From Cyclobacterium sp. SYSU L10401 (GTDB taxonomy: Bacteria > Bacteroidota > Bacteroidia > Cytophagales > Cyclobacteriaceae): a stretch of 64,000 bases of DNA. The DNA lies in assembly GCF_010993705.1 (NCBI RefSeq), contig NZ_WOFO01000003.1, positions 186,001 to 250,000 on the forward strand. The letters run 5' to 3'. A program made the translations under genes and the position numbers. Every line of letters begins with the position of its first letter. Position 1 is the stretch's first letter. The notes beneath the pieces are model-generated. The model worked only from the letters and a program-made list of their open reading frames with translations. It did not search any database and was not told the origin of the DNA. Below are positions 51,885 to 64,000 of the stretch, in pieces.

Positions 51885-53210
51885 TCAGGCCCATAATTCC
51901 TTTTCTGCCTGAAGGGCTTTTGAGAAGTCAATGCCTGATGCCTGCATCTTTTGTTTGATTTCCTCCAGGCAAAGGTTTCCTATACTCCCTTCATGGGTAT
52001 GCCTTACTTGGGTGCCCGGAGTAAAGTTGTTTTTCTCAATGTCCATCCCTACTTTTTTATAGGCGTCCCGGAAAGGCAGCCCTTCCAGCACAAGTCGGTT
52101 CACTTCTTCAACGCTGAACAAATAGGCATAAAAATCATCATCCAGCAGGTTTTTTCTGACGCTTATGTTTTCCAACATCAATTGTGCGATTTTCAGGCTG
52201 TCATTCAACTGCTCAAATGCTGGAAAAATGGTTTCTTTTAGCAGCTGCAGGTCCCTGTGGTAACCTGTGCTCAGATTGGTCAAAAGCATCATGATGCTTT
52301 GTGGATAACCTTGAATCTGATTGGTTTTAGCACGGATCAATTCAAAAACATCCGGATTTTTTTTGTGGGGCATGATGCTTGAACCTGTGGTCAGTTCGTC
52401 CGGAAAGTGGATGAAGCCAAAATGCTGGTTCATGTACATGATGGCATCTGTGGCCAGGCGATTCAAGGTGCCTGCAGTACCAGCCAGGGCAAAGGACAAG
52501 AATTTTTCAGCTTTTCCCCTGCTATTCTGTGCGTTGATCACATTGTGGTGCATGTCGGCAAAACCCAACAAGGTTGTGGTCATTTTCCTGTCTAATGGAA
52601 AGGAGGAACCATATCCCGCAGCAGATCCCAAGGGATTTCGGTTGACCAAGGCATAGGCAGATTGCCAGAGTAACATGTCCTCAGCCAAGCCCTCTGCCAG
52701 GGAGCCAAACCAAAGCCCAAAAGATGAGGGCATGGCCAATTGGGTGTGGGTATAGCCCGGCATCAGATCATCCTTGTGTTTTTCCGCCAGCTTAAGTAAC
52801 AAATTAAATAGTTCATCGATTTCTGCAACGGTTTCACGAATGGCCTGCCTGTAGTAAAGTTTGAGGTCCACCAAAACCTGATCATTTCTGGACCTTCCGC
52901 TGTGAAGTTTCTTACCCACATCTCCATAACGCTCGGTAAGTAAAAACTCTACCTGTGAGTGTACATCTTCCACACCCGGTGCAATGGCAAATTTTCCATT
53001 CTGTACTTCCTCCCGGATTTCTTTCAGGCCCTTTTTAAGCACCTGTAGTTCATCCGCTGTCAAAAGTCTAATGGATGCCAACATACTGGCATGAGCCATG
53101 GAACCGCTTAAATCAAAGGGAGCCAACAGTAGGTCAAACTCCGGATCGCGGCCAATGGTAAAAGTTTCAACTTCTTTTTTACTGGTTTTGTCTTTTTGCC
53201 AAAGTTTCAT
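51885..53210 (-). CDS. argH: argininosuccinate lyase
   Basis: A 441-residue enzyme of the fumarase/aspartase superfamily that splits argininosuccinate to arginine and fumarate, the last step of arginine synthesis. Visible motifs are EDVHSQVEFLLTERYGDVGKKLHSGRSRNDQ, MPGYTHTQLAMPSS, and the superfamily signature GSSIMPHKKNPD with the catalytic Ser in the mobile loop. It is the last gene of the arg operon and its ATG overlaps the argE stop by four bases. The N-terminal KLWQKDKTSKKEVETFTIGRDPEFD is normal for ArgH. Confidence 0.95.
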   Translation of the reverse strand: MKLWQKDKTSKKEVETFTIGRDPEFDLLLAPFDLSGSMAHASMLASIRLLTADELQVLKKGLKEIREEVQNGKFAIAPGVEDVHSQVEFLLTERYGDVGKKLHSGRSRNDQVLVDLKLYYRQAIRETVAEIDELFNLLLKLAEKHKDDLMPGYTHTQLAMPSSFGLWFGSLAEGLAEDMLLWQSAYALVNRNPLGSAAGYGSSFPLDRKMTTTLLGFADMHHNVINAQNSRGKAEKFLSFALAGTAGTLNRLATDAIMYMNQHFGFIHFPDELTTGSSIMPHKKNPDVFELIRAKTNQIQGYPQSIMMLLTNLSTGYHRDLQLLKETIFPAFEQLNDSLKIAQLMLENISVRKNLLDDDFYAYLFSVEEVNRLVLEGLPFRDAYKKVGMDIEKNNFTPGTQVRHTHEGSIGNLCLEEIKQKMQASGIDFSKALQAEKELWA

Positions 53211-54292
53211 TTTATCGGTTGTTTTAATAGAGAAAAATAGGTTTCCAGCAGGCGGATGTACCTGGATATGCCCAGGTTTATTTCTTCCACATATATAAAT
53301 TCATCGGGACTGTGTGATCGGGCAGAGTCTCCCGGACCGATTTTTACGGAAGGGTAAGGGATCAGGGCCTGATCAGATAAGGTTGGGCTACCAAAAGTTT
53401 CCATTTGCAGGCTTTTTGCTGCCTGAACCAGGGGGTGGTTTTCAGGTATATGGGAAGAATTCAGCCGCAGCGAACGGGGCTTGAGTTCAGCTTTCAAATT
53501 TTGCTGTAATTCTTCCAGTGCCTCTTCCAGCTTATAGGCATCCGTTACCCGGACATCCAGGGTATAGCTGCATAAGTCCGGTACTACATTGTGCTGGCTT
53601 CCTGCCTGAATAATGGTAGCGGTTACCTTGTTTGGCCCAAGAAAAGGAGAGGACTTTTTAAATTGGAAGTCCCTAATGGCGATTAAATCATCCAATGCCT
53701 CATAAATGGCATTGATGCCTTCTTCTCTGGCAGCATGACCTGCTTTGCCCTTTACCAGAGCATCTATCACCATCAGGCCTTTTTCCGCCACAGCCATTTT
53801 CATTTGCGTAGGCTCCCCCACGATGGCACAGGCCAGTTCGGGTAATTCAGGAATCATGGATTCCATGCCCCCCTTACCGCTGATTTCCTCCTCTGCAGAC
53901 GCCAGAAATAGGAGGTTGACAGGCAAGTCTTTCCCACAGAAATTAAGAAAGGTAGCCAGCAAACTTACCAGACAGCCCCCGGCATCATTGGATCCCAAGC
54001 CAAACAATTTACCATTTGCTTCTATGGGCTGAAAGGGGTCCAAGGTATAACCCTGATTGGGTTTTACTGTATCATGATGAGAATTAAGCATGATTACAGG
54101 TAAGTTAGGGTCAAATTCCTTGTGATAGGCCCAGATATTATTTCCTTTCCGATGGGTGAATATTGCCTTTTGTTTAAAATAAGCCTGAATTATATCCGCC
54201 GTCTTATCTTCGGATTTACTCAATGATGGTGTCCGGATCAGGTCTTTCAGTAATTGTATTGCTTCTTTTTTTAAATGTTCCAGGTTTTCCAA
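53207..54292 (-). CDS. argE: M20 deacylase, ArgE/succinylornithine-type
   Basis: A 361-residue zinc metallopeptidase-like deacylase. Metal-site motifs are VIMLNSHHDTVKPN (His and Asp), GLGSNDAGGCLVSLLA, FLASAEEEISGKGG (catalytic Glu pair), AIVGEPT and, near the end, PGDSARSHSPDEFI (His). Placed in an arginine operon it should remove the acyl group from N-acyl-citrulline or N-acyl-ornithine; with a succinylornithine-type carbamoyltransferase next door, N-succinylcitrulline is the likely substrate (inference). Overlaps argH by four bases. Confidence 0.87.
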   Translation of the reverse strand: MENLEHLKKEAIQLLKDLIRTPSLSKSEDKTADIIQAYFKQKAIFTHRKGNNIWAYHKEFDPNLPVIMLNSHHDTVKPNQGYTLDPFQPIEANGKLFGLGSNDAGGCLVSLLATFLNFCGKDLPVNLLFLASAEEEISGKGGMESMIPELPELACAIVGEPTQMKMAVAEKGLMVIDALVKGKAGHAAREEGINAIYEALDDLIAIRDFQFKKSSPFLGPNKVTATIIQAGSQHNVVPDLCSYTLDVRVTDAYKLEEALEELQQNLKAELKPRSLRLNSSHIPENHPLVQAAKSLQMETFGSPTLSDQALIPYPSVKIGPGDSARSHSPDEFIYVEEINLGISRYIRLLETYFSLLKQPIK

Positions 54293-54323
54293 GACAGTAG
54301 GGGCTTTAAAGCGGATGGATCAA

Positions 54324-55124
54324 TTAATACAAGTCGTACTTAAGGGACTCAATGATGGTGCCCGCATTTTTTCCTCTTGATGCCAAAAGTAAGTTTTCCG
54401 GCAAACCCATCCAAACATGGTTTACCCCTTTGTTGATGGCATTAAAGGCATTTTCTAATTTGGGAATCATCCCCGAATGTATGATTTTATCCTTTATCAA
54501 TTCCTTATAAATGTCTTCGTTGATCAAGGGAATAAGCGAGGATTCATTGTCTGCATCCATGAGTACTCCAGTCTTGTCAAAACAAAAATAGAGTTTTACC
54601 CGATGCATTTTTGCCAGAGCAGTGGCAATTTCAGAGGCGATGGTATCCGCATTCGTATTGAGCAATTGGCCCTTTCTATCATGCGTGATGGCGCAAAAAA
54701 CAGGGGCAATATTTTGTTTCAACAGGGATTCCAATAGCCCTGTATTGACGCTTTCTACATCTCCAACAAAGCCAAAATCCACTTCCTTTGCAGGCCTTTT
54801 GACGGATTTGATGGCATTGCCATCCGCCCCTGTGAGGCCGATGGCATTCTGACCATAAGCTTGTAAACTGGCTACCAGGTTTTTATTGATCAGGCCGGCA
54901 TAAACCATGGTCACCACATCAAGGGTTTCCTTGTCCGTGATCCTTCTACCCTGGTGCATTTTGGGTTCTATACCCAGAGATTTACCTATTCTGCTCGCCA
55001 TCACGCCTCCACCGTGAACGAGTATTTTGGTTCCGGGAAACTTGGCGAATAGTTTAAGAAAATGGATGGATTTATCAGGATGATCTATGACATTACCTCC
55101 TATTTTGATTACACTAATGTCCAT
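54324..55124 (-). CDS. argB: N-acylglutamate kinase
   Basis: A 266-residue amino-acid kinase. The phosphate-binding lysine and glycines are in VIKIGGNVIDHP and LVHGGGVMASRIGKSLG; DVVTMVYAGLINKNLVASL, GLTGADGNAIKS, VFCAITHDRKGQLLNTNADTIA and GMIPKLENAFNAINKGV are ArgB hallmarks. It phosphorylates the gamma-carboxyl of N-acetyl- or, by context, N-succinylglutamate. It lies between argF' (14 bp after that stop) and argE. Confidence 0.93.
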   Translation of the reverse strand: MDISVIKIGGNVIDHPDKSIHFLKLFAKFPGTKILVHGGGVMASRIGKSLGIEPKMHQGRRITDKETLDVVTMVYAGLINKNLVASLQAYGQNAIGLTGADGNAIKSVKRPAKEVDFGFVGDVESVNTGLLESLLKQNIAPVFCAITHDRKGQLLNTNADTIASEIATALAKMHRVKLYFCFDKTGVLMDADNESSLIPLINEDIYKELIKDKIIHSGMIPKLENAFNAINKGVNHVWMGLPENLLLASRGKNAGTIIESLKYDLY

Positions 55125-55138
55125 TGGTTCAAGCGGTT

Positions 55139-56080
55139 TTAAATCATACTGTCTATGACAGCTTGTGCTGCAAAAATCCTGTTTTTTGCCTGGGTTTGGA
55201 CCAGACTTCGTTTTCCATCCAACATTTCATCACTGAGTTCCAGGTTTCTTCTTACCGGAAGGCAATGCATTATTTTCGCCTTTTGGTTATTGCCAAGTTT
55301 GCTTTCTTTTAATAACCAGTTTTCGTCTACTTTTAGGATTTTTCCGTAGGGGTTAAAGGCACTCCAGTTTTTGACATACACAAAATCAGCATCATGCAGG
55401 GCCTTTTGCTGATCGTATTCTATCGTTGCTCCTTTGGTAAATTGTTCATCCAATTCATAGCCGACAGGGTGTGTAATGGTGAGTTCATGCCCACAACCCA
55501 AGGCCCATTCGGAAAATGAATTGGCCACTGCATGGGGGATAGACTTGATGTGGGGAGCCCAGGTCAAAACCACTTTAGGCTTTCTTTTTTCCTGAAAGCT
55601 TTCCCTGATAGTAACCATATCTGCCAGACTTTGTAAAGGATGCCTAATGGCACTTTCCAGACTGATCACAGGAATCCCTGCATATTTGATAAACTGGTTG
55701 ATAATGAAGTCTTCAGTATCTTCCTGTTTGTTAGTCAGAGAAGGAAAGGCCCGGATGGCCAACATGTCAAAATATCCTCCCAAAACCGCCGCTGCATCCT
55801 TGATGTGTTCTACCTTGTTTTTATTCATCAGTACACCATCCTGCATTTCAAGGGCCCAGGTCTCCTTGTCCATATTCAATACAAAACTTTCCACCCCAAG
55901 GTTAGAGGCTGCCAGCTGGGTGCTTACCCGGGTGCGCAAACTTGGGTTTAAAAAAATCAATCCAAGGCGCTTGCCTTGCCCTTTTTCTTTATTTTTTAGG
56001 GGATTGACCTTAAAGTTCAGGGCTTTTTCGATCAATGATTCTGCTATGGTGTTGTTTTCAAATTGGGTAAATCTCTTCAT
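55139..56080 (-). CDS. argF': N-succinylornithine/N-acetylornithine carbamoyltransferase
   Basis: A 313-residue transcarbamylase. The carbamoyl-phosphate loop is FLNPSLRTRVSTQ, and IRHPLQSLADM and the MHCLPVRRNLE segment match the Bacteroides fragilis succinylornithine enzyme. Residue 90, which separates acetyl- (Glu) from succinyl-ornithine (Pro) specificity in this group, is Val in NKVEHIKDA; published substitutions of that position by small or apolar residues favour succinylornithine, as I recall. So the substrate is probably N-succinylornithine, giving N-succinylcitrulline. Encoded between argD and argB. Confidence 0.9.
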   Translation of the reverse strand: MKRFTQFENNTIAESLIEKALNFKVNPLKNKEKGQGKRLGLIFLNPSLRTRVSTQLAASNLGVESFVLNMDKETWALEMQDGVLMNKNKVEHIKDAAAVLGGYFDMLAIRAFPSLTNKQEDTEDFIINQFIKYAGIPVISLESAIRHPLQSLADMVTIRESFQEKRKPKVVLTWAPHIKSIPHAVANSFSEWALGCGHELTITHPVGYELDEQFTKGATIEYDQQKALHDADFVYVKNWSAFNPYGKILKVDENWLLKESKLGNNQKAKIMHCLPVRRNLELSDEMLDGKRSLVQTQAKNRIFAAQAVIDSMI

Positions 56081-56082
56081 TT

Positions 56083-57234
56083 TTATTGAATGGTCTCTCG
56101 CTGGTTGATGGTTATTTCCAGACTATTGATAAATGATTGTAAATCTTTTTGCTGAATACCAAGGGGGGGAAGCAACCGGATGGTATGCTTACCTGCTGCG
56201 CTTCCTGTAAAAATGCGGTGCTTATTGATTAACTCCGTGCGGTAACCTGCAGCGTCGTGCTTCAAATCAAGTCCAATCATTAACCCTTTTCCCCTTACCT
56301 GGGTGATCTCGGGAATGGTATGGTTTAAAGCTTCCATTAAAAAGGCACCCTGAAGGGCAGCATTTTCCATCAGCTTTTCTGACTCAATGATTTCCAATAC
56401 TGCCAATCCTGCCGCACAAGCCAGTTGATTCCCCCCAAAAGTTGTTCCCAACATCCCATAGTGGGCTTGAATATCCGGACGAATCAATACGCCACCTATG
56501 GGGAAACCGTTCCCCATTCCCTTAGCGGTAGTGATCAGATCCGGCTCAAGGCCATCCGTCCACTGGTGAGCAAAGAACCTGCCTGTTCTGCCGTATCCTG
56601 CTTGCACCTCATCTAAAATAAATTTGGCACCATGTTGTCTGGCCAATACGGCTAACCCTGTTAAAAACTCCGGTGAGGCTACCTGTATTCCGTTTACGCC
56701 TTGGATGGGTTCAATGATGATGGCGGCAATAGCTTTGGTTTTCAAAATTTTTTCAACGCCCTCCAAATCCTCAAATTCTCCAAAATATACCTGGTGGCCG
56801 GTATTAAAAGGGGCGATAATTTTGGGATTGTCCGTAATGGCAACGGCTCCGGAAGTCCTGCCATGAAAAGCTCCCTTAAATGCAATTACACCTGGCTTTC
56901 CCGTTGCAAAAGAGGCCAGTTTAAGGGCATTCTCATTGGCTTCAGCACCTGAATTACACAAAAAAAGCTGGTAGTCCGGTAACCCGGATACTTGACCCAA
57001 TTTTTCGGCAAGGGCATTTTGTATCGGGATTTTAACAGCATTGGAATAGAAAGCCATTTTTTCCAGTTGCTCATTGATCCGGGCGACAAAGTGGGGGTGA
57101 CTATGTCCTATGGAAATCACAGCATGACCGCCATACAAGTCCAGGTATCGCCTGCCTTCCTGGTCCCAAATATAGACACCTTTGGCCCTTTCGGGCGTCA
57201 CATTCATTAATGGATAGACATCAAATAATTGCAT
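56083..57234 (-). CDS. argD: N-acylornithine aminotransferase
   Basis: A 383-residue class III PLP aminotransferase. LYGGHAVISIGHSHP, LCNSGAEANENALKLA, FKGAFHGRTSGA, ILDEVQAGYGRTG and LITTAKGMGNGFPIGG (PLP Lys in the TAKG segment) are all present, followed by GTTFGGNQLACAAG. It makes N-acylornithine from N-acylglutamate semialdehyde and glutamate. Located 66 bp after argC and 2 bp before argF'. Confidence 0.93.
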   Translation of the reverse strand: MQLFDVYPLMNVTPERAKGVYIWDQEGRRYLDLYGGHAVISIGHSHPHFVARINEQLEKMAFYSNAVKIPIQNALAEKLGQVSGLPDYQLFLCNSGAEANENALKLASFATGKPGVIAFKGAFHGRTSGAVAITDNPKIIAPFNTGHQVYFGEFEDLEGVEKILKTKAIAAIIIEPIQGVNGIQVASPEFLTGLAVLARQHGAKFILDEVQAGYGRTGRFFAHQWTDGLEPDLITTAKGMGNGFPIGGVLIRPDIQAHYGMLGTTFGGNQLACAAGLAVLEIIESEKLMENAALQGAFLMEALNHTIPEITQVRGKGLMIGLDLKHDAAGYRTELINKHRIFTGSAAGKHTIRLLPPLGIQQKDLQSFINSLEITINQRETIQ

Positions 57235-57300
57235 TGCTTGTACTTATGATTCAGGGTAGGATTGACACCGTACCGATTGAGACAAGAGATAAATAAATCA

Positions 57301-58269
57301 TTAAAAGACAGTACTTTTTAATCGCAAACCCATTTTTTCATCCAGTCCAAATGCAAGGTTCATGTTTTGTACAGCCTGCCCTGAAGCTCCCTTCAATAAG
57401 TTATCGATTGCGGTATAGACCACCAGCTGACCTGCTTCTTTTTTAAGGTGGACCAAACATTTGTTTGTATTGACTACCTGCTTGAGGTCGATATCATTTT
57501 TGCTGACATAGGTAAAGGCAGCATACCGATAAAAATCCTGATATCCCTGATAAGCCTCTTCCAGCGAGCCATCAAAAGGAAAATAGGCAGTAATCCAGAT
57601 TCCTCTTGTAAAATTGCCCCTATAGGGTACAAACAGCACCTGCTGATCAAAACCGCTATGCAATTTACCAAAGGTCTGATTGATTTCTTTCAAGTGCTGG
57701 TGCGTAAATAATTTATAAACCGAAACGTTTTGGTTTCTATGACTGAAATGGGTGGTTGGACTTAGGCTTTTTCCTGCTCCGGTACTGCCTGTAATACCCG
57801 AAACATGCAGCGCATTGCTTACCCAGCCTTGCTGTACGGAAGGTGCCAATGCCAGCTGTATACAGGTGGCAAAGCATCCGGGGTTGGCTATTTTTACTGC
57901 TTGCTGTATCAGCTGCTTATTGGTTTCCGGCAGACCGTAAATAAACCCATTTGACTCATCCCTGAAGTCGGTACTCAGGTCAATGATCACCGTTTCTTCG
58001 GCAAAGGAATGCTTTTGCAGAAATGGTTTTGCTTGTCCATGGGGCAGGCAAAGAAATACCAGGTCCAGGTTTGCACTGTCTATTTGATCCGTAAAAACCA
58101 AAGATGCGTCACCGATCAGGTCGGGATGGACGTCCTCCAATTTTTTTCCATTTTGACTGTTACTGTGAATCCAGACAAGGTCTACCTGGGGATGATGCAC
58201 CAGGAGCCGCACCAATTCACCACCTGTATACCCGGCAGCTCCTACGATTCCTGTTTTAATGGTCTTCAT
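57301..58269 (-). CDS. argC: N-acyl-gamma-glutamyl-phosphate reductase
   Basis: A 322-residue dehydrogenase with the Rossmann motif GIVGAAGYTGGELVRLL, the catalytic Cys in ANPGCFATCIQLAL, GITGSTGAGKSLSPTTHFSHR, and a C-terminal KGASGQAVQNMNLAFG. It reduces acylglutamyl phosphate to the semialdehyde with NADPH. The start overlaps the end of argG by 14 bp, so translation is coupled. Confidence 0.94.
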   Translation of the reverse strand: MKTIKTGIVGAAGYTGGELVRLLVHHPQVDLVWIHSNSQNGKKLEDVHPDLIGDASLVFTDQIDSANLDLVFLCLPHGQAKPFLQKHSFAEETVIIDLSTDFRDESNGFIYGLPETNKQLIQQAVKIANPGCFATCIQLALAPSVQQGWVSNALHVSGITGSTGAGKSLSPTTHFSHRNQNVSVYKLFTHQHLKEINQTFGKLHSGFDQQVLFVPYRGNFTRGIWITAYFPFDGSLEEAYQGYQDFYRYAAFTYVSKNDIDLKQVVNTNKCLVHLKKEAGQLVVYTAIDNLLKGASGQAVQNMNLAFGLDEKMGLRLKSTVF

Positions 58270-59461
58270 GTTCCAGACTTTGGTTTACTTGATGAAAAAT
58301 CGCTGTTTGGTTGCCAAATATTTTGGTAAATCCTTTGACATCCTCAGCAGTATAACCTTTATTCATCTCTCCATAACTACCGAATTTGGAGGACATGAGA
58401 TCGTGTTCGGATTTGATCCCGATCATGCTGAAGCGGTAGGGGTGCAATTGAACCTTAACTTCTCCACTGACGTAATTTTGGGTACTTGCCATGAATGCTT
58501 CCAGGTTTCGCATGACCGGATCCAGGTAATGACCTTCATGCAGGTGATTGCCATAAAATTCTGCCATCTGGTTTTTCCAGTAACTTTGCCATTTGGTAAG
58601 TATGTGTTTTTCCAGCAGCTGATGGGCTTTGATGATGAGCATGGGTGCGGCCGCTTCAAAGCCTACTCTTCCTTTTATACCGATAATGGTGTCTCCTACG
58701 TGTATGTCCCTGCCTATTCCAAAAGGGGCAGCGATTTCCTGCACCTTCAAAATGGCTTCCACAGGATGGCTGAATACCTGTCCATTCACCTGCGTTATTT
58801 CTCCCTTTTCAAACCCTATGTTGATGACCTCTGGTTTCGTCTTACTAACTTGTGTGGGGTAAGCTTCTTCTGGCAAAGCCTGGTCCGAAGTAAGGGTTTC
58901 CCTGCCTCCCACAGAAGTTCCCCAAATACCCTTATTGATTGAATAGGCTGCTTTTTCAAAATTCATGCTCACTCCATGCTTCTTCAGGAAGTTAATTTCT
59001 TCCTCCCTGCTGAGTTTAAGGTCCCTGATTGGCGTAATAATCTCTATGCCCGGAAGGATGGTTTGAAAAATCATATCAAACCGAACTTGATCATTACCAG
59101 CTCCTGTACTTCCATGTGCCAGGCAGCTGGCACCTATACTTTTTGCATGTTCGGCCAGGGCTTTTGCCTGTAAAATCCTTTCAGCACTTACCGAAAGGGG
59201 ATAGGTTTGGTTTTTCAATACATTGCCAAAAACCAAAAACTTAATCACTTCATTGTAGTAGGTTTTAGTAACATCCAAAACCTTAAAGGAAGCAACCCCC
59301 AACTTTTCGGCCCTCGCCCCGATATTTTTTAATTCTTCCTTCTCAAACCCTCCGGTGTTGACCAAAACAGCGTGGACTTCATATCCTTTCTCCTTACTTA
59401 AATGGATGGCACAAAATGTGGTATCCAAACCTCCGCTGTATGCTAATACTACTTTTTTCAT
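58256..59461 (-). CDS. argG: argininosuccinate synthase
   Basis: A 401-residue ATP-dependent synthetase joining citrulline and aspartate. The N-terminal PP-loop is LAYSGGLDTTFCAIHL. CLAHGSTGAGNDQVRFD and GIWGTSVGGRETLT follow, as expected in ArgG, although the latter has TSVGGRE where many have SIEG(R/A)E. Its ATG is embedded in the terminal TTTCAT of a repeat element. The gene is second in the arg operon, separated by that repeat from the GNAT gene. Confidence 0.93.
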   Translation of the reverse strand: MKKVVLAYSGGLDTTFCAIHLSKEKGYEVHAVLVNTGGFEKEELKNIGARAEKLGVASFKVLDVTKTYYNEVIKFLVFGNVLKNQTYPLSVSAERILQAKALAEHAKSIGASCLAHGSTGAGNDQVRFDMIFQTILPGIEIITPIRDLKLSREEEINFLKKHGVSMNFEKAAYSINKGIWGTSVGGRETLTSDQALPEEAYPTQVSKTKPEVINIGFEKGEITQVNGQVFSHPVEAILKVQEIAAPFGIGRDIHVGDTIIGIKGRVGFEAAAPMLIIKAHQLLEKHILTKWQSYWKNQMAEFYGNHLHEGHYLDPVMRNLEAFMASTQNYVSGEVKVQLHPYRFSMIGIKSEHDLMSSKFGSYGEMNKGYTAEDVKGFTKIFGNQTAIFHQVNQSLEHEDH

Positions 59462-59556
59462 CTGTTTATAATTTGTCTTTAAGCGGTCAGATGGAATCTT
59501 TGACGATTAAAATAATCATTGCCCTGTGTGTTTAATGATGATTTTAATCGTGTCGA
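59456..59556. repeat. palindromic intergenic repeat, copy F (divergent core)
   Basis: Shares the ends of copies A-D (TTTCATCTGTTTATAATTTG, AAGCGGTCAGATGGAATC, and GATTTCAT at 59555-59562) but has a different core: ACGATTAAAATAATCATT (59503-59520) pairs 17 of 18 with AATGATGATTTTAATCGT (59534-59551) around a 13-nt loop. Stem pairing is kept while the sequence changed. Confidence 0.82.
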
Positions 59557-59610
59557 TTTCATGTGATAGATTACCGATTTACTATATGGTTGATAAAAAC
59601 CAGTGATTGG

Positions 59611-60312
59611 TTAAGATGACTGGTTTACTTTTTCTTTAACTTTTGCCAGGGCATTTCTTTTTCCTTTGGCAATATTAAGAAACATGGCCCGTTTGATCTT
59701 GATTAAACGCTCAAAAAGGCTGAGATTCTTATTGAATTCTGCTGAAAGTTTCTTTTGTTCGGCTTTTTTTACGCTTTTGGGCTCATAAAGCATGGCTGTG
59801 CAAAGGCAATTGGATCGGTTTTTACTCATCAGAATGGGATAATTTACACAGCTTTGACAACCTTTCCAGAAATCGTCATCTGTGGTTAGGTCAGAGTAGC
59901 TTACAGGATAATAGCCAAGTTCTGAATTGATCTTCATCACTGCAGCACCCGTGGTAAGGCCAAAAATTTTAGCATCGGGGTATTTTTTGCGGCTTAATCT
60001 GAATACTTCCCTTTTTATTTCTCTGGCCAGGCCATGTTTTCTGAATTCCGGTGATACAATTAAACCTGAGTTGGCCACAAATTTTCCATGCCCCCAGGCC
60101 TCAATGTAGCAGAAGCCGGCCCATTGACCGGAAGAAGAAAGGGCGATAACCGCCTTTCCTTCTTTCATTTTGGTTTTGATATACTCAGGTGACCGTTTGG
60201 CTATTCCCGTACCCCTTGCCTGCGCTGAACGTTCCATTTCTTCAGTAATCGTTTCAGCATAATGGCAATGTTCTTCGCCGGCGGGTTTAATGATAAATTT
60301 TTGATTGGCCAT
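59611..60312 (-). CDS. GNAT N-acyltransferase, probable acylglutamate synthase, with Cys cluster
   Basis: A 233-residue GNAT-fold enzyme. The acyl-CoA binding signature is VSPEFRKHGLAREIKREVF (RxxGxA at 91-96) and the preceding strand GLIV. An insertion around residues 150-173 holds Cys152, Cys155, Cys169 and Cys171 (CxxC-x13-CxC), suggesting a zinc site not usual in GNAT enzymes. It heads the arginine operon, which otherwise lacks a gene for the first step, so N-acetyl- or N-succinylglutamate synthesis is the likely role (inference). The last ~50 residues are basic and helical. A TTGTTG/CAACAA palindrome lies 25-43 bp upstream. Confidence 0.75.
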   Translation of the reverse strand: MANQKFIIKPAGEEHCHYAETITEEMERSAQARGTGIAKRSPEYIKTKMKEGKAVIALSSSGQWAGFCYIEAWGHGKFVANSGLIVSPEFRKHGLAREIKREVFRLSRKKYPDAKIFGLTTGAAVMKINSELGYYPVSYSDLTTDDDFWKGCQSCVNYPILMSKNRSNCLCTAMLYEPKSVKKAEQKKLSAEFNKNLSLFERLIKIKRAMFLNIAKGKRNALAKVKEKVNQSS

Positions 60313-60847: not shown

Positions 60848-62068
60848 ATGGCAAAATGTTTCGCACTAATGGGTTGGAGTTTGCCCGTGATAGAAAGTAT
60901 GCAAAAACTCAACAAACCTTATGTTGTGGTATCCTATCCGGATTTTGAAGGCTATGCCAAAGAAAACAATATACCATTTGTATCCTACCAATTCAATGAA
61001 TGGAGCGATTCTTCCAATTCCCTGGACCTCAAGATCAAATTGGATGAGTTTGGTGCCGATGTAGCAGTTCCTCTGTTTGAGGAGACAGTGGAATGGGCAG
61101 GAGCGTTGAACTCTTTATACAGGGATGATCCCAGGGTGCTCAACAGGGCCTTTCTATTTAGAAATAAGGCCATGATGAAGCGGAAAGCCTTGATTGGCGG
61201 ACTTCGTGTAGGGCTTTTTGAAGAAGTACATAGCAAAGATGGGGTTATTAAATTCATGGATAGACTGAATCAAGCCAATCTTCAGGTAGATGGTGAAGAG
61301 GACAGTTGGGTTCATATCAAACCTTTTGCATCCGCTGGAACGGTGGGCCACAGATTGTTGAGGTCCAAACAGGATGTGATGGATAAATGTGTAGAGGAAG
61401 ATTTTCCCTGCCTGGCAGAAAGCCACCTTCCTGGAAAGGAATTCTCCTGCGAGGCCTTTATTCATGGAGGAAAAATCAGGTTTTTGAATATTACGGAGTA
61501 TGTCAAGCTTGGTTACAGTAACTTCATCCCAGAAGGTCATTATCTGCATACTAAAAGGGATAAAATCATGAAGGAAATGCAGAAGCTGGTCGACATTTTT
61601 GGTATCCAATACGGAATGATTCACCCAGAGTGGTTCCTGACCGAAAATGACGAAATTAGTTTTGGAGAGACAGCCTGCAGGATCCCTGGGGGGCATATTT
61701 TGGAGTTATGCAGTAAAGCTTATGGCTTTGACGCATTGGCTGCTTTTGTGCTTTGCCATGATCCGGATTTGACAGAGGATGAATTAGCTGAAATACTACC
61801 TCCACTGGATGCCAGGCCCAATCAGTTTTATGGCAATGTGATGATCTATCCACATAAAAACCAAATATCCAAACTGATCATTCCCGAGGAATTAAAAGAA
61901 GAGCCTTATTTTCTGGATCACAACCTGATACCTCCTATGACTACCCAGAAGATCAGCGACAGGGAGGGATTTGGCAATCACTTCGGTACGGTTAATTTTA
62001 AGGGGGAAGACCCGGATCGGATGACAGAACTATTACTCCATTACGAAAACGTTGACTTTTACCATTAG
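60848..62068 (+). CDS. ATP-grasp fold ligase-like protein
   Basis: A 406-residue cytosolic protein. The N-terminal preATP-grasp part starts MAKCFALMGWSLPVIESM; DVAVPLFEETVEWAGALNSL and FRNKAMMKRKALI lead into the ATP-grasp domain. Nucleotide and metal sites are suggested by VHIKPFASAGTVGHRLL (Lys and glycine loop), CLAESHLPGKEFSCEAFIHGG and MIHPEWFLTENDEISFGETACRIPGGH (the Glu/Asn-like metal ligands of carboxylate-amine ligases). ATP-grasp enzymes usually join a carboxylate to an amine through acyl phosphate. Substrate unknown. Its next neighbour encodes a large papain-like protein. Confidence 0.78.
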   Translation: MAKCFALMGWSLPVIESMQKLNKPYVVVSYPDFEGYAKENNIPFVSYQFNEWSDSSNSLDLKIKLDEFGADVAVPLFEETVEWAGALNSLYRDDPRVLNRAFLFRNKAMMKRKALIGGLRVGLFEEVHSKDGVIKFMDRLNQANLQVDGEEDSWVHIKPFASAGTVGHRLLRSKQDVMDKCVEEDFPCLAESHLPGKEFSCEAFIHGGKIRFLNITEYVKLGYSNFIPEGHYLHTKRDKIMKEMQKLVDIFGIQYGMIHPEWFLTENDEISFGETACRIPGGHILELCSKAYGFDALAAFVLCHDPDLTEDELAEILPPLDARPNQFYGNVMIYPHKNQISKLIIPEELKEEPYFLDHNLIPPMTTQKISDREGFGNHFGTVNFKGEDPDRMTELLLHYENVDFYH

Positions 62069-62144
62069 GAAGGAAAATTTCACCAACCATTTTTGACTTT
62101 AAAGTGAAAATTTCCGTCATTAAATGAGAGCAGGTAGAAAAAAG

Positions 62145-62175
62145 TATTGGCAGGTATAGCTGCCAATATTTTTTT
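62145..62175 (+). terminator. strong Rho-independent terminator after the ATP-grasp gene
   Basis: TATTGGCAG (62145-62153) and CTGCCAATA (62160-62168) are perfect 9-bp arms with a GTATAG loop, followed by seven T. The next gene starts 43 bp later and so needs its own promoter or read-through. Confidence 0.88.
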
Positions 62176-62218
62176 CTTTTATTATTACAATTATATAAAT
62201 TTAAGTGTTAGACCATTC

Positions 62219-64000
62219 ATGCAAGATCAGGAGATATTAGAGAGAAGCCAGGAGCTTTTTGATGAGTTATTCAAAGAATACAAAGAAGCTACAGCGCTGA
62301 CCAGTAACCAAAAAGCCCAGAAGATAATGGGCCAACTGGATACCTGGTGTGATAGTGAGGAAGGAATTTCCAGGATTTACGAAAACATTCCCAAGTTGGT
62401 GGAAGCCGGGATTTTAAAGGATTCTCCCTGGGAGCATCCTGGCAAGTTGGTTCCTGCTTTGGTAAATGGCACTTATAAAAGTGGGCATCCCAATTCTACC
62501 ATTGAATTAATCAGTGAATTGAGAATGCTGGCCATCGCAAAAGGTAAGATCAAATCTGCGGAAGTAAGTGCTGCAGAAGCAGAAAATTTTATCCAGGAGG
62601 TAATCGTATACAATTTGGAGTTTGTATTTAACGAGCCTCAGGAGGAAACAAGAATCGTAATGAGTGGGCATGAATTGAAAAAAGTTCATTCGCTTTTTAG
62701 CTTTTTGTCCAATAGTGTCAAGCTTTCGAAAGTTAAATCAAAGCTTGCTGAGGAATTGAGGCTAATTTGCGAACAGCGCCCTGTTGTGACGGAAAAGCAA
62801 AGGAGAATCATCGCTTTGGTGAAAGAAAAAATTGAGCTGGATCCCAATGATCCGGAGGATTTAGATTTGTTGGCGTTTCAAAGGAGCATCTACCGACCAA
62901 CGGATAGAACTACGGATAAAACTTTTCAGGAATACCGTCAGGATTTAGATAAATTGACCATCGAGGAGTTGGAAAAGGAAGCTCGTGAAATGGGTGAAGT
63001 GATGTTGCAGTTTGGATTGGTAAGTCAATACCATGCCGTTTTGTTGCTTCACCTGGTCAGAAAGGAGCTTTATGAATTGGTACCTCCTTGTTTTGCATTA
63101 AGTGCAGCAGGTGAGGCCAGGTACCACGAATTCAGGGACTTTGTAAGTTTTTTGATTGTTCAGGTCATAGATCCATTCAATGCACAATGTCTTTATGGCC
63201 TTGCTAAAATGCTTGAAAATGGTGTTTTGGCCAGAGAGGCTGTGCGATCGGGTTTATTCAACCTTACCAAGATCACCATACATCCGGAGGTTATCAAAAG
63301 AATTTTAAAATCCACCAGGACACCTCATGAGAAAGTAACGCCTAAACAATACCTGATAGGTGCACTTTTCAGAATTTTGGGTCAACCCCTGGGTGTCGGA
63401 CAGGGCAATAACCCTACCTGCCAGAGTGCCCGAGGTATCAGTATGTGGAGTCAGCATGCTCCGGCCAAATTGATTCACATGGTGCAGACAGCAGCGGAAT
63501 ATGATGACATATCCTTCAGGTTTGAAGGACAGGAAGTAAAATATTCCCAAACCCAGCCGGGATTGGTACAGGTGCTGGACCACCATTTGGATGCCGTCTC
63601 TGTTACTTTGGTCCCCATGCTGGACAGGATCTACAATGACATGATGCTTCGTGCATCGGGAAGGGGAGAGGATCCCCATAAATGGGTAAACCCTGCTTTG
63701 TATGGCCAATGGATACAGATAGGTTTCGCCTCTGCCTACGATTACACTTTTAATGCCATCATCGATTTTGATGGCTTTGTGAGGGTGTTTTATTCCATGT
63801 TCCATCCCAAATACAATGGTGGTCACCGGATGGTATATCCAAACCCGGTCGGTATCTTCGTTACTACGGCAAAAGGAGAAATGCTGGGATTCCATGCAAT
63901 ATCCTTGCTCAGGATAGATAAAGACAATAATGGAGATTTGAGGGCTTATTTTCTTAATCCAAACAATGAGGGCAGACAAGATTGGGGACAGGATATCAAA
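62219..64000 (+). CDS. large protein with a papain-like cysteine-hydrolase signature (3' partial)
   Basis: The ATG is at 62219 and the frame stays open for 594 codons to the window edge. Residues 1 to about 385 are mostly helical and charged, without a signal peptide. From residue 395 there is VGQGNNPTCQSARGISMW: Gln395 stands six residues before Cys401, exactly as papain Gln19 and Cys25. Then EMLGFHAISLLRI (His559) and AYFLNPNNEGRQDWG (Asn580 or Asn583, with a WG following) match the His and Asn of the papain triad in order and style. A papain-like peptidase, transpeptidase or acyltransferase is therefore suggested by eye; a family assignment is not possible here. It follows the ATP-grasp gene. 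Confidence 0.6.
   Translation, partial: MQDQEILERSQELFDELFKEYKEATALTSNQKAQKIMGQLDTWCDSEEGISRIYENIPKLVEAGILKDSPWEHPGKLVPALVNGTYKSGHPNSTIELISELRMLAIAKGKIKSAEVSAAEAENFIQEVIVYNLEFVFNEPQEETRIVMSGHELKKVHSLFSFLSNSVKLSKVKSKLAEELRLICEQRPVVTEKQRRIIALVKEKIELDPNDPEDLDLLAFQRSIYRPTDRTTDKTFQEYRQDLDKLTIEELEKEAREMGEVMLQFGLVSQYHAVLLLHLVRKELYELVPPCFALSAAGEARYHEFRDFVSFLIVQVIDPFNAQCLYGLAKMLENGVLAREAVRSGLFNLTKITIHPEVIKRILKSTRTPHEKVTPKQYLIGALFRILGQPLGVGQGNNPTCQSARGISMWSQHAPAKLIHMVQTAAEYDDISFRFEGQEVKYSQTQPGLVQVLDHHLDAVSVTLVPMLDRIYNDMMLRASGRGEDPHKWVNPALYGQWIQIGFASAYDYTFNAIIDFDGFVRVFYSMFHPKYNGGHRMVYPNPVGIFVTTAKGEMLGFHAISLLRIDKDNNGDLRAYFLNPNNEGRQDWGQDIK

Follow-up and report, generated by a model that had tools for sequence, protein, structure and literature searches.

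The end of a 64,000-nucleotide stretch from Cyclobacterium sp. SYSU L10401 (NZ_WOFO01000003.1, positions 186,001 to 250,000, or G000:C13:186001-250000 in the 5.9-Mb genome G000), hereafter the window, carries an ATP-grasp ligase gene followed by a gene for a papain-like cysteine enzyme. The first gene of this unit is an open reading frame of 406 amino acids with an ATG start (60848-62068, plus strand) that encodes a putative ATP-grasp carboxylate-amine ligase. The second, on the same strand at 62219-64213, encodes a putative papain-like cysteine enzyme of 664 amino acids. Its frame is still open at the end of the window (position 64000), and the stop codon was found in the organism's own genome. 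The conserved start of the papain-like protein is the ATG at 62219 (MQDQEIL...), with which the residue numbers given in an earlier note on this DNA (Gln395, Cys401, His559 and Asn580/583) agree. By eye, the N-terminus MQDQEILERSQELF shows no hydrophobic stretch. Within the final 7 nucleotides of the papain-like gene begins a third, co-directional gene, an alanine-racemase-like frame of 385 amino acids on the plus strand that falls wholly outside the window, at 64207-65364 when the numbering of the window is carried on (L002:6208-7365). The earlier note had proposed a candidate two-gene system. Its two genes do form a unit, but the description was incomplete, as the racemase-like gene stands outside the window, and in this organism the unit comprises at least three genes.

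The ATP-grasp and papain-like genes are confirmed as a conserved unit. Among 59 genomes, made up of the window's own and those of relatives, the papain-like gene occurs in 19, and a strong ATP-grasp match (E ≤ 1e-180) occurs in the same 19; ten further relatives hold weak general ATP-grasp matches only (best E 1.9e-15) and no papain-like gene. Across 249 genomes of one Bacilli order, that of Halobacillus L091, both genes were found in the identical 36 (papain-like E ≤ 0.001, ATP-grasp E ≤ 1e-40; Fisher p 3e-44, not adjusted for relatedness), and all 37 ATP-grasp matches stand directly upstream of a papain-like match. From at least 580 relatives, 80 named loci were retained, and in 75 of these, one being a contig-edge fragment, the ATP-grasp gene lies upstream of the papain-like gene. 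In four of the remaining five the contig starts at the papain-like gene, and L089 is a true exception. The open frames are separated by a median of 30 nucleotides over 108 adjacent pairs, with the ATP-grasp gene first in each. The distance matrices of the two proteins, calculated from 72 dereplicated pairs, are correlated (Mantel r 0.75, a value that 0 of 2000 permutations reached), which is to be expected from shared descent as well. The pairing that the earlier note had drawn from one locus thus holds, both in the shared occurrence of the genes in two samples and in their order at the named loci.

Going by record titles, the pair was found in Bacteroidota, Balneolota, Gemmatimonadota and Bacillota, as well as in one Oligoflexia metagenome-assembled genome (MAG) and one Halomonas. 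Across the window's phylum it is rare, being present in 4 of the 296 genomes sampled, one of which is the window's own. The window's proteins are 40-50% identical to their Bacilli counterparts. Several individual genomes stand out. G503 holds two complete pairs at separate sites (L156, L157), with an AblB-like gene beside one only. The papain-like protein of L049, from a MAG titled Rickettsiales bacterium, is 97% identical to that of Marinoscillum pacificum (L048) and the gene order is alike, so that this MAG is probably mislabelled. A distant pair, with a papain-like protein 35% identical, lies on L109 (NZ_CP040452.1), a 1.8-Mb Halomonas replicon that is filed as a plasmid and has one annotated feature. 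This replicon is the one plasmid-filed match. A phage or mobile origin of the pair was considered and rejected: there was no phage match, and none of the 12 stretches in viral contigs that fitted the search patterns encodes a relative.

The papain-like protein was aligned with its homologues to assess the active site. All 125 distinct homologues carry Q395, C401, H559 and N580, and likewise Q402, R405, N582, Q587 and W589; Asn583 is retained in 117. Two peptide patterns had served to collect the 80 named loci, and one of them spans Q395 and C401; H559 and N580 lie outside every pattern. For 46 of the 125 homologues the source was the window or a protein, profile or tblastn search, and two of these 46 share at least 95% identity with a pattern-found one. 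The same residues were invariant in a first alignment of 14 relatives obtained by whole-protein search. The spacing of Gln395 and Cys401 equals that of papain's Gln19 and Cys25 (Gln-x5-Cys). The motif read by the earlier note is real, and the neighbourhood survey and the alignment agree with it on both counts, as homologues of the two genes co-occur and Gln395, Cys401, His559 and Asn580 are conserved.

Family libraries gave no fitting description of this protein. The window's copy matched no fitting Pfam or NCBIfam family; 48 members gave only scattered, unrelated weak matches to Pfam (best E 0.0008, at most three members per family), none to a papain-clan family, and no match to NCBIfam at E ≤ 0.001. 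Likewise, none of the three proteins of the unit matched a PADLOC model at E ≤ 0.01. This agrees with the earlier note, which knew of no named system matching either protein, in that Pfam, NCBIfam and PADLOC have no model describing the papain-like protein.

We then turned to predicted structure. A model built from 14 sequences had a fair mean confidence (predicted local distance difference test, pLDDT, 78), and an AlphaFold model from 48 sequences a good one (pLDDT 89.4, predicted template modelling score 0.85). The model places a helical N-terminal part of about 390 amino acids ahead of a helix at 401-413 that starts at Cys401, followed by strands at 542-549, 555-568 and 574-579, with His559 within the second of these and Asn580 right after the third. 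Compared with papain's own order of Gln, Cys, His and Asn, the modelled order of secondary structure supports, without proving, a papain-type arrangement. In Foldseek searches of the PDB, bacterial papain-like cysteine peptidases ranked top in both runs (E 0.14 and 0.055, none significant), with low TM-scores across the whole chain; a viral structure library gave papain-like matches at E 0.057-0.5 only, and the family profile found nothing relevant among solved structures. The papain-like fold suggested earlier is thus favoured by the order of elements and by the rank of papain-family structures, but no match reached significance. The nearest folds appear to be clan CA papain-like enzymes, namely the Parabacteroides cysteine aminopeptidase (5wdk/3pw3/6w4n), staphopain, and plant and animal papain relatives. 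Like these, the modelled protein has its Gln, its Cys at a helix start, its His in a strand and its Asn just past the next strand; unlike them, it carries the long helical N-terminal part, is coupled to a ligase and has no Pfam family and no significant fold or sequence match.

The window's ATP-grasp protein matches PF13535 at E 1.2e-5 (25.5 bits, just under the 27-bit cut-off), and with a threshold of E ≤ 0.001 this domain is recognised in 27 of 28 members of the family. The family profile aligns with the L-amino acid ligase 4wd3 (E 8e-12) over about 250 residues, including the GE-x-A-x-R region, and more weakly with 4dim and 3vot. E261, E274 and R278, presumably two acidic metal-binding residues and a conserved arginine, are invariant in 28 of 28 members and align to the same region of 4wd3. 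By profile comparison, the nearest solved relative is an L-amino acid ligase, and ATP-dependent dipeptide formation is the chemistry to be expected of the enzyme. The ATP-grasp region is shared with the L-amino acid ligases (4wd3; BL00235, 3vot; BacD). It differs from them in its low similarity, with 14.8 bits against an NCBIfam cut-off of 850 for BacD, and in its constant papain-like partner.

The racemase-like gene lies downstream of the pair in 45 of the 80 named loci and is usual in Bacteroidota and Balneolota. All three proteins examined exceed the TIGR00492 cut-off of 168 bits (279-285 bits; 278.9 for the window's) and retain the K in VVKANAYGHG and the Y in GYGT, presumably the pyridoxal phosphate lysine and the catalytic tyrosine of alanine racemase. 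In place of the CMDQ of 4y2w, the third gene has NMNL or NMNV, with an Asn preceding the C-terminal Glu, and its substrate may possibly be other than alanine. Elsewhere the window's genome encodes an 894-amino-acid open frame with a racemase domain, which by its size may be a MurF-Alr fusion, as well as a 388-amino-acid one scoring like the third gene.

Genes for the supply of ornithine recur beside the trio. In three groups of loci, genes of the glutamate-to-ornithine route, without the argF, argG or argH needed to continue to arginine, adjoin the trio and are co-directional with it. More specifically, argB-argD-argC-argJ lies upstream in L169, whose ATP-grasp protein resembles that of Fodinibius roseus and whose genome was counted in the window's phylum. 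In L170 the four genes follow the trio, no gap exceeding 29 nucleotides, and in L172, L048 and L052 they also follow it, separated by a single additional gene. In L049, argD, argC and argJ lie downstream. Arginine-biosynthesis markers occurred in 13 of 124 windows holding the papain-like gene vs 0 of 40 windows of 18 kb drawn at random from genomes with the pair, where the 13 include seven Cyclobacterium loci with a divergent arginine operon and the seed loci L169 and L170, and the windows are not independent by lineage. Of 12 pair-bearing genomes, 11 have an argC of the ornithine-operon type (420-455 bits), G024 being the exception, and 8 have the ordinary arginine-operon type (285-310 bits); 7, the window's genome included, have both, a count confined to pair-bearing genomes. 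The four genes argB, argD, argC and argJ form one cluster in G000, G012, G014 and G352, and in G018, G045 and G282 they do so next to the pair; three of the four were found in G161 (at a contig end), G266 and G356, and two in G023. In the window's genome this second argB-argD-argC-argJ operon lies at about 453.0-457.3 kb of contig C12.

Two neighbours of these operons were noted by eye. Trk-type potassium uptake genes lie upstream of the second ornithine operon of the window's genome, on the same strand with one gene between (L257:7992-16040; G000:C12 ~453.0-461.0 kb), and an MscS-like mechanosensitive channel gene (L170:16123-17034) begins 30 nucleotides past argJ, at the end of the combined pair and ornithine operon.

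In several Bacilli the pair is adjoined by a GNAT-family acetyltransferase above the cut-off of the AblB equivalog model (TIGR03827, 221-240 bits vs 205.1, in 4 of 4 scanned). This AblB-like subfamily (at least 218 bits with L102 as query) is present in 12 of the 36 pair genomes of the Bacilli sample vs 0 of the 213 others (p 1.4e-11, not adjusted for relatedness, with the border set at a score gap, 218 vs a next best of 157, after the gap had been seen). Seven of the 12 subfamily genes are next to the pair, and among all 34 AblB-family genes in pair genomes 7 adjoin the pair vs about 0.08 expected. Neither the AblA/AblB pathway nor that to N-delta-acetylornithine is known to need an ATP-grasp or cysteine enzyme. 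A likeness to the N-acetyl-beta-lysine pathway (AblA/AblB) and to N-delta-acetylornithine solutes lies in the acetyltransferase that scores above the AblB cut-off. Unlike AblB proper, it forms a subfamily of its own, confined to pair genomes in the 249-genome sample, and no lysine 2,3-aminomutase (AblA) gene was noticed by eye beside it in the gene lists read, in which no model search was made.

The linkage of the genes, the conservation of the active site and the partner genes are direct observations. Because a ligase, an acyl-thioester enzyme, a racemase, an acetyltransferase and a supply of ornithine occur together, they point to a short pathway to an amide containing ornithine or lysine. 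We give about an even chance to the reading that the pair is the two-enzyme core of a cytosolic pathway to a small amide-linked metabolite, made from a diamino acid of the ornithine or lysine type, whose likeliest role is that of a compatible solute. Ornithine would first be supplied, in Bacteroidota and Balneolota often by a second argB-argD-argC-argJ operon, and the racemase-like enzyme, where present, may turn one building block into its D form. The ATP-grasp enzyme would then use ATP to activate a carboxylate and couple this to an amine, so that a dipeptide-like intermediate forms. Next, the papain-like enzyme would form an acyl-thioester on Cys401 and pass the acyl group to a second amine, or to water, to complete or trim the product. 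Finally, in some halophilic Bacilli, the AblB-like enzyme would acetylate a side-chain amine. The order of these steps, the substrates, transfer over hydrolysis and the osmotic role are what we infer. The earlier note had offered synthesis and maturation of a small peptide metabolite as one option; in outline this gains support from the ornithine genes, the racemase-like gene and the N-acetyltransferase of diamino-acid type, while the chemistry stays conjectural. A compatible solute is the first guess for the product because N-delta-acetylornithine and N-epsilon-acetyl-alpha-lysine were, as of 2008, compatible solutes known only from aerobic Firmicutes (PMC2329653), and because many carriers of the pair bear marine or saline names, a tally that has no control group.

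Several observations weigh against this reading. At L089 no ATP-grasp gene accompanies the papain-like gene, although 7.9 kb of sequence is available upstream, and some Bacilli hold extra papain-like copies without one. The racemase-like gene was not found in 35 of the 80 named loci, some of whose contigs end there (e.g., L071, L082, L101). The AblB-like gene is missing in 24 of the 36 pair genomes, and 5 of its 12 copies lie elsewhere in the genome. The count of second argC genes covers pair-bearing genomes alone. Both tests of salt adaptation failed to support the osmolyte step: ectoine synthase is about equally common with the pair (12 of 36 genomes) and without it (61 of 213; p 0.56), and the acidity of proteins encoded in windows around a shared gene did not clearly differ between 20 pair and 20 other genomes (p 0.12). 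Within the pair genomes, ectoine synthase occurs in 9 of the 12 with the AblB-like gene vs 3 of the 24 without it. Neighbours linked to osmotic stress (BCCT, betAB with proB, proBA, MscS and Ktr genes, and Trk at the second ornithine operon) are suggestive, but they are scattered, most of them limited to a single lineage, and had already been seen when they were selected as seeds.

As an alternative, the papain-like protein may be a hydrolase that degrades the product of the ATP-grasp enzyme, for example to dispose of a solute after dilution. Most papain-fold enzymes with Cys, His and Asn are hydrolases, and the active-site residues are kept in the extra Bacilli copies that lack an ATP-grasp gene. 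Against this, the constant tight coupling of the genes in one order would be more typical of two synthesis steps, and we hold degradation to be possible but the less probable course. The extra Bacilli paralogues (L147, L149, L150, L151, L152 and L153-L155) comprise shorter copies of 606-629 amino acids, of which four are only a few kb away from the pair, and full-length copies with no ATP-grasp gene close by.

It is also conceivable, though we think it unlikely, that the link to ornithine is right and the osmolyte role wrong, the product being a signalling, antioxidant or antimicrobial secondary metabolite. The patchy spread of the pair (4 of 296 genomes of the phylum, 36 of 249 of the order) fits accessory metabolism, and the salt markers show no association with it. 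However, secondary-metabolite clusters usually hold exporter, regulator or self-resistance genes, and inspection by eye showed no recurrent gene of these kinds among the genes listed; the duplicated ornithine operons, in turn, suggest a high flux.

Modification of cell-wall peptides with D-amino acids, by a racemase and an ATP-grasp enzyme resembling D-Ala-D-Ala ligase, seems very improbable. The score of the racemase-like gene above the TIGR00492 cut-off speaks for it, as does the weak likeness of the Bacillus member L084 to D-Ala-D-Ala ligase (20.1 bits vs a cut-off of 245.65), but the window's genome already has its two other racemase-type frames, the third gene is not found in 35 of the 80 named loci, no mur or dac neighbours were noticed by eye and no signal peptide is evident. 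Equally improbable is protein tagging, as the earlier note had envisaged, in which the ATP-grasp enzyme would add a peptide or amino acid to a protein and the cysteine enzyme remove it: the active-site motif is real, and tubulin tyrosine ligase with vasohibin is a known pair of such logic, but the partners here are amino-acid biosynthesis, racemase-like and acetyltransferase genes. Among the genes listed, none for protein modification, a tag peptide, a protease or a proteasome was noticed by eye to recur, nor was there a PADLOC match. Anti-phage defence was dropped as a candidate after the same PADLOC result (0 of 3 proteins).

Known systems resemble the proposed pathway in part. Iyer et al. 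reportedly described, in 2009, amidoligase neighbourhoods with ATP-grasp, GNAT and papain-like (C39/DUF3335) partners. These reportedly follow the same logic of an ATP-grasp ligase beside acetyltransferase and papain-fold enzymes; in contrast, the papain-like protein here matches no DUF3335 or other papain-clan Pfam family. The N-acetylglutaminylglutamine amide (NAGGN) osmolyte pathway (asnO/ngg) shares the idea of a dipeptide osmolyte, an acetyltransferase and an ATP-grasp ligase, but no asparagine-synthetase-like gene was noticed beside the pair and the ligase would be of a different family. Amidoligase neighbourhoods of the kind mentioned are also referred to in PMC10318531. Since systems of ATP-grasp, GNAT and papain-like enzymes are known in principle, the unit would be a known kind of system with an uncatalogued papain-like family at its centre. 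Among the open-licence PubMed Central papers retrieved, no title or abstract opening describes the pair.

We tentatively suggest, as an idea that is itself rather doubtful, that the unit makes an undescribed class of peptide-like compatible solute from ornithine, acetyl- or D-ornithine included, by means of an ATP-grasp ligase and a papain-fold acyltransferase, in at least five phyla (going by record titles), and that it has gone unannotated because the papain-like enzyme is uncatalogued. Because two enzymes this well conserved, with an invariant active site and near-constant linkage, include one without a library entry, genome annotation probably overlooks an entire metabolic product. With the ornithine and AblB-like partners as a guide, the range of substrates shrinks from any carboxylate to a small set of amino acids. 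Should the papain-like protein prove to be an acyltransferase, the papain fold would gain a new catalytic role in the making of small molecules.

Divergent from the unit, on the minus strand at 51885-60312, lies an arginine operon, argH-argE-argB-argF'-argD-argC-argG plus a GNAT gene (59611-60312), with names assigned by similarity and recall. Such a divergent operon beside the pair is confined to Cyclobacterium among the loci read. The GNAT gene was considered as a member of the unit and dropped; because a GNAT gene also precedes argG in arginine operons away from the pair in other genomes, it was counted with the arginine operon.

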